A DNA stretch of 21,905 nt, from positions 1-21,905 of the forward strand of contig MNYV01000162.1 of the NCBI GenBank assembly GCA_001873285.1, written 5' to 3'. Made by a program: the position numbers and the translations under genes. The number at the start of each line of letters is the position of its first letter. Position 1 is the stretch's first letter. The notes under the pieces are model-generated. The model saw nothing but the letters and a program-made list of their open reading frames with translations, did no database searches and was not told the DNA's origin. Below, in pieces: positions 10,733 through 15,347 of the stretch. The DNA comes from Nitrospirae bacterium CG2_30_53_67 (GTDB lineage Bacteria > CG2-30-53-67).

Positions 10733-10903
10733 ATGATTGAACGACGCTATAAATCGACGGAATCTCTTGACGGGGTCATTGATCTCGAACGTTTGAGATC
10801 AGGACCGACCGACAGCCTGGAGAGCGGCGGATTTCAGGGGCGAGAAGCGCATGAGGACTGCTCGGCGCTATGCTGGATGCAACCATCAAAGGCGCTTATT
10901 TGA
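10733..10903 (+). CDS. Possible leaderless 56-residue ORF ahead of the antitoxin
   Basis: An ATG at the predicted transcription start opens a 56-codon frame (beginning MIERRYKSTESLDG) that ends 16 bp before the antitoxin start. It has no ribosome binding site and no recognisable family. A short segment in another frame (LLGAMLDATIKGAYLMSGVKP, ending at the TGA at 10921-10923) also looks protein-like, so this stretch could be a frameshifted relic of a larger gene. It could equally be untranslated leader. Confidence is low. Confidence 0.25.
   Translation: MIERRYKSTESLDGVIDLERLRSGPTDSLESGGFQGREAHEDCSALCWMQPSKALI
10781..10800. promoter_or_regulatory. Operator-like 20-bp palindrome in the toxin-antitoxin leader
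   Basis: GATCTCGAACGTTTGAGATC is a perfect dyad except for one symmetric pair (positions 7 and 14). It lies about 50 bp downstream of the predicted start site and 120 bp before the antitoxin. Ribbon-helix-helix antitoxins commonly bind such palindromes to autorepress, so this is a candidate binding site. Confidence 0.5.
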
Positions 10904-10919
10904 TGAGTGGAGTCAAACC

Positions 10920-11162
10920 GTGAAACGAAAAGTCGGAACACTCCTTGAAGAAGACGTGCTGCGCAAGGCCAAGCGCCGGGCGGTTGACGAAGGACGTCCT
11001 CTGAGCGATCTGATTCAGGATGCGCTGGAAAGCTACCTCTCAACACGAGCCGTCGACCCGGCAAAGAGCGACGCGGCCTATCAGCTTTATTGCGAGCGGC
11101 CGATAAAGCTTACCTCGGCAAAGCTCAAGGCAGTCATGGAGGAAGATGCATGGGATCTGTAA
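10920..11162 (+). CDS. Ribbon-helix-helix (CopG-type) antitoxin
   Basis: This is an 80-residue protein. Residues 1-40 (KRKVGTLLEEDVLRKAKRRA... LSDLIQDALESYL) have the beta-alpha-alpha pattern of a ribbon-helix-helix DNA-binding domain. The acidic C-terminal tail (ending VMEEDAWDL) would wrap the toxin. The GTG start was chosen because GGAG lies 7 bp upstream; the frame is open to an ATG at 10851, but those extra residues do not fit the fold. The gene overlaps the PIN toxin by 13 bp. It is expected to neutralise the toxin and repress the promoter upstream. Confidence 0.8.
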   Translation: MKRKVGTLLEEDVLRKAKRRAVDEGRPLSDLIQDALESYLSTRAVDPAKSDAAYQLYCERPIKLTSAKLKAVMEEDAWDL

Positions 11163-11665
11163 ACCTCGACGATATCCCGGCCGGCAGCCTCTGCATGATC
11201 GATACGAACGTTCTGCTCTATGCGGAACAGAATGTTTCAGATCAGGCGCAGAGATTTATCCGGCGCTGTGCCAAGGGCGAGCTGAGCGGCGTTCTGCCGC
11301 AAACAGTCTGGCAGGAATTGACGCATAAGCTCATGCTCGCAGAGGCCATGATGAAAGGGGCCATCGCAAAAGGCAATCCCGCAGCGCGTCTTGCGGCAAA
11401 ACCCGAAATCATCAAGGGGCTGAGCCTCTATCGCGCCAAAGTAAATGCGCTTTCTGACCTCGGACTAAGGTTCGCGGCCTGCACGCTGGAAGACCTTACG
11501 AAGACTGCGTTCAAGATGCAGGAGAAGTACGGATTTCTTACAAATGATGCAGTGGTGCTGGCAGTGGCGATGCGGCTGAAGGCGGATGTGCTGGTGTCAA
11601 GCGATAAGGCATTCCATGGAGTGACGGAGGTGGCGGTCCATTATCCCACGGATTTGCGTCTTTGA
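11150..11665 (+). CDS. PIN-domain toxin (VapC-like ribonuclease)
   Basis: The 171-residue product has the four acidic residues of PIN nucleases: Asp18 (CMIDTNVLLY), Glu56 (WQELTHK), Asp133 (LTNDAVVLAVA) and Asp152 (VSSDKAF). PIN toxins are Mg2+-dependent RNases that block translation by cutting RNA, often tRNA or rRNA; the target cannot be read here. It is somewhat longer than the common VapC length of about 130-140 residues. The ATG at 11150 has GGAGGA just upstream, within the antitoxin 3' end, so the pair should be translationally coupled. Confidence 0.85.
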   Translation: MGSVNLDDIPAGSLCMIDTNVLLYAEQNVSDQAQRFIRRCAKGELSGVLPQTVWQELTHKLMLAEAMMKGAIAKGNPAARLAAKPEIIKGLSLYRAKVNALSDLGLRFAACTLEDLTKTAFKMQEKYGFLTNDAVVLAVAMRLKADVLVSSDKAFHGVTEVAVHYPTDLRL

Positions 11666-12741: not shown

Positions 12742-12987
12742 TTATCCCTCCTTCTCGGCCTGGAAACGGCTTTCCAGGAATCGGACGATGTCATCCGATT
12801 CATACATGGGCTTATCATCAATGAAGAGACAAGGGATTTGATACATCCCCCCATCCCGTATAAGCCGCATCATATTCGGCGGCCAGAGAATATTTCTATA
12901 GACCACATCCGCCTTTAATCTCCTGACGGCCCTCCGGACCTTCATGCAGTAGGGTCAGGTGGGAAACTGGTAGAGTTCGAGCTTCAC
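12742..12987 (-). CDS. Putative selenocysteine-containing glutaredoxin (UxxC), UGA read through
   Basis: Read with the in-frame TGA at 12957-12955 as Sec11, the gene encodes 81 residues. It starts at GTG with GGAGG 7 bp upstream. The translation opens with KLELYQFPT-U-PYCMKV, where the usual glutaredoxin active site is TCPYC. The rest of the fold is intact: the QIPCLFIDDKP cis-Pro motif (Pro52) and ESDDIVRFLESRF, ending at a normal length. A standard gene finder would give only the 67-residue piece from the internal Met at 12945, lacking the first strand and nucleophile. A hairpin at 12924-12944 meets my recollection of bacterial SECIS rules. It has its own promoter and is convergent with the SDR gene. 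The alternative is a nonsense mutation or sequencing error at one base. Confidence 0.8.
12924..12944 (-). promoter_or_regulatory. Bacterial SECIS-like hairpin
   Basis: In the mRNA sense, GGUCC (12940-12936) pairs with GGGCC (12932-12928) around a GGA loop. After an A-G mismatch, UGA (12944-12942) pairs with UCA (12926-12924). The apical loop starts 19 nt after the UGA codon and begins with two G residues. From memory, bacterial SECIS elements have the loop about 16-37 nt after UGA, 3-14 nt in size, with G in its first two positions; this fits. It would bind SelB to deliver Sec-tRNA. Confidence 0.7.
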
Positions 12988-13027
12988 AGGAATCCCTCCG
13001 GATCGTGATTTTCCAACCGTATGTTTC

Positions 13028-13055
13028 AGTCTATCACGGCCTGATCCATTGTCAA
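13028..13055 (-). promoter_or_regulatory. Predicted promoter of the selenoglutaredoxin gene
   Basis: On the minus strand a perfect TTGACA (13055-13050) is followed after 16 bp by TAGACT (13033-13028, 4/6). Transcription would start near 13021, giving a leader of about 34 nt before the GTG. A live promoter argues against the gene being a dead fragment. Confidence 0.55.
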
Positions 13056-13076: not shown

Positions 13077-13537
13077 TTAAACCAGTCCGCAAATACTTTT
13101 TGGAGTCAGTCCCATTCTTAGTTGAAATTCCGTAGCGGCTCCCATCTTCATCAGGCAGCTACACCCTCCTTTCCCGAGGCCGGCTCTATCCTCAACTCCC
13201 TTTGGATCGCTATTACCAATTGGAGAAGATGCCGGTAACCACAGATCTTATTCAGCCTGGGCTCTATATCCAATAAGGCGGCAGCCAACTATCTCTGTTT
13301 CTGATTCGAGTTCTTCCAATGATCTACTTTGTCCAGTCTCTGACCGATCAGGGACATGAGCGACTCGATGCAGTTGCTGGTCTTCAGGCTGGGGCCGAGC
13401 TCCTGAATTCGCCCCAGCTTGTGTAACGTCAACGTCTACTCAAGACCCTCTTTCCGACTTCTGACCGCCGACTCATTGATCAACTTGAGCGCCTTCTTCA
13501 CCTTGGCCCTTCTTGCCTTGACATTTTTGCCTGCTTA
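13077..13537 (-). pseudogene. Decayed C-terminal fragment of a transposase (IS256/Mutator-like)
   Basis: The minus-strand frame gives ALKLINESAVRSRKEGLE, then HKLGRIQELGPSLKTSNCIE, IGQRLDKVDHWKNSNQKQR and LAAALLDIEPRLNKICGYRH, the C-terminal signature of a transposase group I associate with the Mutator/IS256 type. In-frame TAG codons at 13438-13436 and 13291-13289 break it. The second replaces the Trp normally found in QKQRW. A TAA at 13537-13535 marks the upstream limit. The N-terminal two thirds of the protein are absent. The family name is by recollection; the decay is directly visible. Confidence 0.75.
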
Positions 13538-13634
13538 TAATACTTTTTTCATCAGCGGTTCATTTCCTTAAAATGGTTTCTAACTGACCAGAAACAAAAC
13601 CATTTTAGGAGCCGATACTTTAAATTTCAACTAA
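13118..13634. mobile_element. Deletion-derivative insertion sequence remnant with 12-bp inverted ends
   Basis: TTAGTTGAAATT (13118-13129) and its exact complement (13623-13634) bracket most of the transposase fragment, suggesting the terminal inverted repeats of a 517-bp internally deleted element. No target-site duplication is evident. Near the right end a second strong dyad, AAAATGGTTT/AAACCATTTT (13570-13579, 13597-13606), is present. The 706 bp between the glutaredoxin start and the nuclease start contain this remnant and no intact gene. Confidence 0.55.
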
Positions 13635-13693
13635 CTTTAGCAGACCGCCGGTCACACTTTATGCGGTCATTGCAGGCAGGAGGAATGGAAACG

Positions 13694-14554
13694 ATGAAGA
13701 TATATATATCCCCCCCATTTATTACATTTATAAAACAGACCCGGCATATCATTCCCGCTTTTATTTTGCTATATCTTCTTTTTATCATTTCTGATCCTGC
13801 TTTTTCACAGGAGACCGGACAGGTTCAGAAGGTGTATGACGGCGATACGGTGCTGCTGTCAGATGGCCGAAAAGTAAGGTATCTGGGAATTAATACGCCG
13901 GAATGGCAGGAGCCCTTTTATTTAAAAGCAAAACGGATTAACGAGTCATTAGTGATGGGGAAGGATGTTCGCCTGGAGTTTGACGAAGAACGAGTAGACA
14001 AATATGGTCGTTTGTTGGCGTATCTTTATGTGAGAGATCAGATGGTAAATGCCAAACTGATTGAGGACGGTCTCGCTCATGCATTTTTCATCCCGCCGAA
14101 TCGTAAACATCATGCATTACTGCTCAAACTTCAGGCAGATGCCAGGGAACGCAAATTAGGGATATGGTCTAAACGCGGCAAGATGTCTGTCCTTAAGATT
14201 ACCAGTGTCCACCCGCCTATCTCCGCTGAAGGAAAATCGCTTCAACCCTATTCACGGATTGCTAATATCAGTAATATTAAGGTCAATCTTGCAGGATACA
14301 CACTTTCCAGCGAAACAGGACCCTCGTATAAGTTCCCTGATATTGAGTTGGCGCCTGGGTATACCGTTCTTGTTGTCAGCGGGAAGAAAATCAATAATCT
14401 GAAAAGCGAAGGTCAGCTCGTTATTTACTGGAATGATCAACCTGCCAAATGGGATGAAGAGGAGGACACTGCATACCTCACAGCCCCTGATGGAACTCTA
14501 ATAGACTTATATCATTACAAGGGACGCCGAGTCTCACGAAAACCTAAGCAGTAA
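13694..14554 (+). CDS. Exported thermonuclease-like (SNase) protein with C-terminal lamin-tail-like domain
   Basis: The 286-residue protein has a signal peptide or anchor (about 18-38), then a staphylococcal-nuclease fold (about 43-160). Motifs are KVYDGDTVLL (Asp49, Asp51), VRYLGINTPEW (Arg62, Glu70) and DKYGRLLAYLYV (Arg106), matching the SNase Ca2+/catalytic set. The residue equivalent to Asp40 of the staphylococcal enzyme is Asn67. Residues about 165-277 form a beta-rich segment (GYTLSSETGPSYKFPDIELA, GYTVLVVSG) typical of lamin-tail domains attached to secreted nucleases. It should degrade nucleic acid outside the cytoplasm. The ATG at 13694 follows AGGAGG by 10 bp. Base composition is visibly more AT-rich than the flanking core genes, consistent with transfer. 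Confidence 0.82.
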   Translation: MKIYISPPFITFIKQTRHIIPAFILLYLLFIISDPAFSQETGQVQKVYDGDTVLLSDGRKVRYLGINTPEWQEPFYLKAKRINESLVMGKDVRLEFDEERVDKYGRLLAYLYVRDQMVNAKLIEDGLAHAFFIPPNRKHHALLLKLQADARERKLGIWSKRGKMSVLKITSVHPPISAEGKSLQPYSRIANISNIKVNLAGYTLSSETGPSYKFPDIELAPGYTVLVVSGKKINNLKSEGQLVIYWNDQPAKWDEEEDTAYLTAPDGTLIDLYHYKGRRVSRKPKQ

Positions 14555-14639: not shown

Positions 14640-14787
14640 GTGTTTTTAAGTTGAAAAGATTATGGACTTAACCCCGTCAATGTGACATAATTATTTGTTG
14701 GGAACATGATTGGGCTGATTGTCCCCTTGAGGTTTTATGCCTTAAAGAGATTGTTTGTAAATTTAAATAACATGAAAGAGGTTGAAC

Positions 14788-14982
14788 ATGAGCAAAAAGG
14801 AATTACTTATCAGTGAACTTGAACAGTTTACGGAGCCTCTTCTTGATGAGGTGTTGGATTTCGTCCATTTCTTAAAGACTAAGTTAACAAAGGAAAGGAT
14901 CGATACTGCTATCGCGAGTGAATCCGCTTTAAGAAAAGATTGGCTTAAAGCAGAGGAGGATGAGGCATGGCAAAGTTTGTAA
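14788..14982 (+). CDS. DUF2281-type antitoxin
   Basis: The 64-residue protein reads SKKELLISELEQFTEPLLDEVLDFVHFLKTKL, the pattern of DUF2281 proteins that act as antitoxins upstream of MazF/PemK- or PIN-type toxins. The C-terminal acidic tail (LKAEEDEAWQSL) is the likely toxin-binding part. The ATG at 14788 is favoured by GAGG 6 bp upstream over a TTG at 14782. It overlaps the toxin gene by 16 bp. It should neutralise the toxin and may take part in autoregulation. Confidence 0.78.
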   Translation: MSKKELLISELEQFTEPLLDEVLDFVHFLKTKLTKERIDTAIASESALRKDWLKAEEDEAWQSL

Positions 14983-15347
14983 GAGGCGATGTCGTTGTTG
15001 TGCCTTTTCCCTTTTCTGATCTAAGCCAATCTAAAAGACGGCCTGCTTTAGTCATTACATCATTGGACGGCGACGACCTTATTCTTTGTCAGATAACCAG
15101 TCAAACAATCAAAGACAATTATTCACTTTCACTTGATGATAAAGACTTTAAAACGGGGAGTCTAAAACAGACAAGCAATTTAAGGCCTAATCGCATCTTT
15201 ACAGCGGACAGCCATATTATCTTATATCGCGTCGGCAATCTTAGGGATGAAAAGCTCTCTGAAGTTGTTGAAAAGATTGTTGAAATAATTCGCGGTAAAA
15301 ACACAACTTCCGATAACAAAGCGCAAACGGCTATCACACAAACCTGA
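14967..15347 (+). CDS. PemK/MazF-family mRNA interferase toxin
   Basis: The 126-residue product starts KFVRGDVVVVPFPFSDLSQS and continues KRRPALVIT, the signature of the MazF/PemK beta-barrel, with the conserved RP near residue 25. QITSQ and SNLRPNRIFT (about 69-78) mark the substrate groove. MazF-type toxins cut single-stranded mRNA at short motifs. The ATG lies in the antitoxin 3' end after GAGGATGAGG. The last 15 or so residues (after EIIRGKN) run into the attC-like palindrome, and the stop codon sits inside it, as is common for integron cassette genes. Confidence 0.85.
   Translation: MAKFVRGDVVVVPFPFSDLSQSKRRPALVITSLDGDDLILCQITSQTIKDNYSLSLDDKDFKTGSLKQTSNLRPNRIFTADSHIILYRVGNLRDEKLSEVVEKIVEIIRGKNTTSDNKAQTAITQT

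Follow-up and report, generated by a model that had tools for sequence, protein, structure and literature searches.

Selenocysteine (Sec)-containing glutaredoxins have been listed for Geobacter, Alkaliphilus, and Moorella (PMC1794560) and from the Sargasso Sea (PMC1088965), and the family has been reviewed more broadly (PMC13188914). Bearers of the UxxC form include Geobacter sulfurreducens, Alkaliphilus metalliredigenes, Moorella thermoacetica, and Clostridium (Alkaliphilus) oremlandii, and the family is partly characterized; in the last of these species it has been studied biochemically, the U13C and C16S mutants of Grx1 make the positions of the Sec and Cys residues evident, and the glutaredoxin reduces a Sec-containing MsrA (PMC4479559). 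Other described proteins approach this kind from different sides. A GST-like selenoprotein family known from metagenomes (PF13409/COG0625) also carries Sec in a GST_N-type protein but is listed without a UxxC motif, the NCBIfam Uxx-star families (NF041114 and NF041212) are likewise Sec-bearing and glutaredoxin-like, and a group of Cys-containing glutaredoxins of approximately 80 residues is annotated as "glutathione S-transferase N-terminal domain-containing protein."

Here, we describe a gene in a 21,905-nucleotide stretch of contig MNYV01000162.1 (the window) from Nitrospirae bacterium CG2_30_53_67 that adds to the established Sec-glutaredoxin kind, to which we assign it by domain matches, a U-P-Y-C motif, and a fold model. 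We put the probability at roughly 95% that the gene encodes a small selenoprotein, a single-domain glutaredoxin of GST_N/Grx2-like type in which the UGA at codon 11 is read as Sec, with both Sec insertion and enzyme activity predicted from sequence. The features of the locus are collected in Table 1.

Table 1. Features of the predicted Sec-glutaredoxin locus, in window coordinates
Feature	Coordinates	Strand	Details or basis
Sec-glutaredoxin gene (predicted)	12742..12987	(-)	81 codons plus TAA stop (ending at 12742), GTG start at 12987-12985
UGA codon, predicted selenocysteine 11, replacing the nucleophilic Cys of C-P-Y-C	12955..12957	(-)	Alignment of homologues
Cys14, predicted resolving cysteine of U-P-Y-C (TGC)	12946..12948	(-)	Invariant in 25/25 aligned homologues
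Shine-Dalgarno-like GGAGG	12995..12999	(-)	7 nt before the GTG
Sigma-70-type promoter TTGACA-N16-TAGACT with TG extension	13028..13055	(-)	Sequence and conservation in 6/6 family genomes; TTGACA starts at 13055, TAGACT ends at 13028
Putative bSECIS core	12928..12940	(-)	Stem GGUCC 12940-12936 / GGGCC 12932-12928, loop GGA 12935-12933

The preliminary description of this DNA had placed a TGA exactly at the nucleophilic Cys codon of a glutaredoxin, in a frame that runs on to full length and is preceded by a start codon with GGAGG and a promoter with a perfect TTGACA, and each of these elements is borne out by our reading. The TGA aligns with the Cys of homologues and is the sole interruption of the frame, which is otherwise open to its stop; read through as T-U-P-Y-C, it gives the 81-residue translation VKLELYQFPTUPYCMKVRRAV...VRFLESRFQAEKEG. 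The gene has its own promoter. Each of the six family genomes sampled retains its TTGACA together with much of the -10 sequence. It had also been foreseen that standard calling would yield a 67-residue fragment without the active site or pass over the gene, and the mechanical list of open reading frames does hold just such a fragment, beginning with ATG and spanning 12742 to 12945, which makes this gene a clear case of ordinary gene calling cutting off a redox enzyme's active site. One might propose instead that this fragment is the true product, a 67-residue protein without Sec for which the upstream codons are a leader, and the ATG at codon 15 does follow the active-site Cys directly and does not vary among the six genomes. 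However, a product begun there would miss beta strand 1 of the Trx fold as well as its nucleophile, codons 2 to 10 vary mostly as translated codons do (8 of 10 variable sites are third positions), and the Shine-Dalgarno sequence and conserved promoter fit the upstream GTG, so we regard initiation at the internal ATG as very improbable.

Searches for homologues in 60 and then 386 genomes recovered the glutaredoxin in each of the six genomes that sample the window's family across three genera, and in every one a single in-frame TGA, always at this codon, is the only internal stop. UGA also occupies this site in two genomes of a distant lineage, f99 (G104 and G370), where the N terminus reads MLKLYQFETUPYCEKVR, and all other homologues whose site was read carry Cys there. 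Aligning homologues with Cys or U at this position had been suggested earlier as a check, with random extra stops in close homologues named as evidence against the reading; the site proves to be either U or C, and the family shows no such stops. Homologues in a plasmid collection were all below 60% identity and are annotated as "glutathione S-transferase N-terminal domain-containing protein" (the active sites of these plasmid matches lie outside the U/C tally), and a search of viral contigs for relatives found none.

These comparisons also bear on whether the TGA could be an inactivating mutation, or a misread TGC, TGT, or TGG, with the downstream frame a relic. The assembly is fragmented into 183 contigs, a base error is conceivable when the window alone is considered, and the decayed remains of a transposase-like sequence, with stops, are found just upstream of the gene. 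Against this, six independent assemblies separated at the species, genus, or family level have this TGA and no further internal stop, as does the distant lineage; we take its presence in independent assemblies as a stand-in for resequencing. Among the family genes, pairwise dN over codons 12 to 75 ranged from 0.01 to 0.20 and dS from 0.27 to 2.7 where estimable (one pair was saturated), and wherever the estimate was usable dN lay well below dS, which shows purifying selection on the codons that follow the UGA. Together with the third-position variation in codons 2 to 10, this indicates that the gene evolves as translated sequence before as well as after the UGA. With selection persisting past the TGA and the promoter conserved, a pseudogene or sequencing error appears extremely improbable.

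The genome that contains the window encodes the machinery that Sec insertion would need. The preliminary description had implied that the organism has selA, selB, selC, and selD, and all four were found: selA (530.9 bits), a tRNA-Sec with anticodon UCA, selB (296.8 bits), and selD (158.3 bits). The matches of the selB and selD genes run to contig ends, where SelD lacks its N-terminal half, indicating that both genes were cut by the assembly. Both selA and selD are present in all eight genomes with UGA at the glutaredoxin site, that is, the six family genomes and the two of the distant lineage. The complete gene set with tRNA-Sec(UCA) argues against a reading of UGA as a standard amino acid, whether through a change of code to Trp or through a suppressor. 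Such a reading would also leave the frame open, since any sense assignment of UGA does so, but homologues carry Cys at the UGA site and UGA is found again at classical Sec positions (in FdhA and in SelD of relatives), and we give this explanation almost no credence beside the reading as Sec.

Two other genes with in-frame UGA were observed in this group. The formate dehydrogenase alpha subunit (FdhA) gene of the window's genome (locus L082, G000:C120:36322-38328) has one in-frame UGA at RY-U-HSS, followed 18 nt downstream by a 7-bp stem with the loop GGUCU, and is likely a second selenoprotein of this genome. SelD of relatives (L088, L086, L091, and further loci) has a UGA near the N terminus, in the contexts GAG-U-ACK and CGG-U-AAK, and is itself likely a selenoprotein. 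Our literature search found no paper joining selenocysteine and CG2-30-53-67. The glutaredoxin is an addition to a poorly sampled, uncultured Nitrospirae-labelled lineage that also shows a likely Sec formate dehydrogenase and Sec-SelD, and it leaves the understanding of selenoprotein function unchanged.

A search for a bSECIS element had been another suggested check, and a bSECIS-like hairpin is indeed present and conserved in the six family genomes. It lies 19 nt after the UGA, and its local fold in the window has an energy of -8.8 kcal/mol. Published rules for bSECIS elements call for an upper stem of 4 to 16 bp, a loop of 3 to 9 nt with a G in the first two loop positions, a distance of 16 to 37 nt from the UGA, and a minimum free energy of -7.5 kcal/mol or lower (PMC13188914). 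The window hairpin, with its 5-bp stem, agrees with all of these. The local folds of all six genomes contain the core hairpin, with energies from -7.2 (in one relative, just short of the -7.5 limit) to -11.7 kcal/mol; 60-nt folds of some relatives favor competing pairings. Agreement with the rules is common by chance: 94% of synonymous recodings of the gene hold some stem within permissive limits on stem, loop, and spacing, and 38% match the window's stem in stability, so the hairpin counts only through its conservation.

In the stem, all ten bases are identical in the six genomes, with variation confined to the loop (GGA, GGC, or GUC, two of the three bases varying). The gene's longest stretch without variation measures 15 nt; it takes in the 5' arm of this stem and stops at the first base of the loop, a length reached by 0.3% of codon-column shuffles. 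A Fisher test on frozen synonymous codons gave a P value of 0.0045 for a region picked post hoc, and an unbiased scan of frozen codons gave about 0.095. In the distant lineage, the G104 gene has a different stem of 9 bp that lies 24 nt from the UGA and has GUU as its loop. This stem and the one after the FdhA UGA also agree with the published bSECIS model in stem, loop, and spacing (PMC13188914). An Rfam scan of the window matched no family. The putative bSECIS hairpin is accordingly supporting rather than decisive, and the conservation of its stem outweighs its fit to the rules.

The earlier naming of the gene as a glutaredoxin stands, with a qualification as to type. With Cys substituted for U, the protein matched the Pfam Glutaredoxin family (PF00462) at 41.4 bits (cutoff, 22.9), but it scored higher against GST_N_3 (PF13417; 50.2 bits; cutoff, 22) and also matched GST_N_2 (PF13409; 39.9 bits, above cutoff), and the nearest NCBIfam models are those of glutaredoxin 2/GrxB, although it falls far below their cutoffs. 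An AlphaFold2 model (pLDDT, 93.7; pTM, 0.83) has the Trx fold, Foldseek matched it to GST, Grx2, and SspA folds, and Pro52, at the place of the cis-Pro of the Trx fold, is invariant in the alignment. The protein is a glutaredoxin nearer to the GST_N/GrxB type than to Grx1 or Grx3. With the described UxxC Sec-glutaredoxins it shares, judging by motif and published description, a small Trx fold, Sec as the N-terminal nucleophile, and a Cys three residues on; it differs from those of PF00462 in its resemblance to the GrxB N-domain. Although it matches PF13409 as the GST-like selenoproteins do, it consists of the N-domain alone, with U-P-Y-C, and lacks a GST C-terminal domain. Against the Uxx-star families it scored 16.5 to 16.9 bits, far below the cutoffs of 66 to 72. 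The annotated Cys glutaredoxins have, like it, approximately 80 residues, P52, and an ES-DI motif, but bear C-P-[YF]-C with Cys instead of Sec in the members read.

A more novel reading is that the stand-alone GST_N/Grx2-like glutaredoxins form a selenoprotein branch apart from the described PF00462 Sec-glutaredoxins, fixed across the Nitrospirae-labelled family and gained independently in f99. If so, the same site would have changed from Cys to Sec more than once. We think this rather unlikely. The Sec label requires two changes on a tree of 25 short proteins, but that tree is not strong enough for dating the changes between Cys and Sec, and its supported branches are compatible with one origin.

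The mechanism that we infer would begin with the ribosome reading the UGA at codon 11 as selenocysteine by means of SelB and tRNA-Sec(UCA), with the hairpin just downstream in the mRNA binding SelB and directing the insertion. Sec11 would then act as the nucleophile on mixed or protein disulfides, the candidate substrates, with Cys14 as the resolving residue. Adjoining gshA (GCS2 type) and gshB genes are present in the window's genome, which points to glutathione, probably made by the organism itself, as the likely reductant, and glutathione-coupled chemistry is plausible on this gene content. A role in serving a Sec-MsrA, the partner of the glutaredoxin in C. oremlandii, is unsupported here, as the sole MsrA found in the window's genome is an MsrAB fusion with Cys (GGCFWC).

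The surroundings of the gene offer several further observations. It is convergent with an NAD-epimerase-like gene in the window's genome and two others (G000, G001, and G002). Upstream of its promoter, positions 13100 to 13600 of the minus strand hold the transposase-like remnant with stops, which was judged by eye and has no Pfam match. A possible VapBC-type pair lies on the plus strand at 10851 to 11665, where a PIN-domain protein (11090 to 11665; PF01850, 36.7 bits) follows a small gene that matches DUF6364 weakly, and a similar PIN gene is found near the glutaredoxin of G001. A possible MazEF-type pair occupies 14782 to 15347 of the plus strand; its second gene (14967 to 15347) matches the PemK/MazF toxin at 43.2 bits, and the small gene before it has no domain match. 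Between this pair and the glutaredoxin, the plus-strand gene at 13661 to 14554 combines staphylococcal-nuclease and Lamin Tail domains and probably encodes a secreted nuclease.
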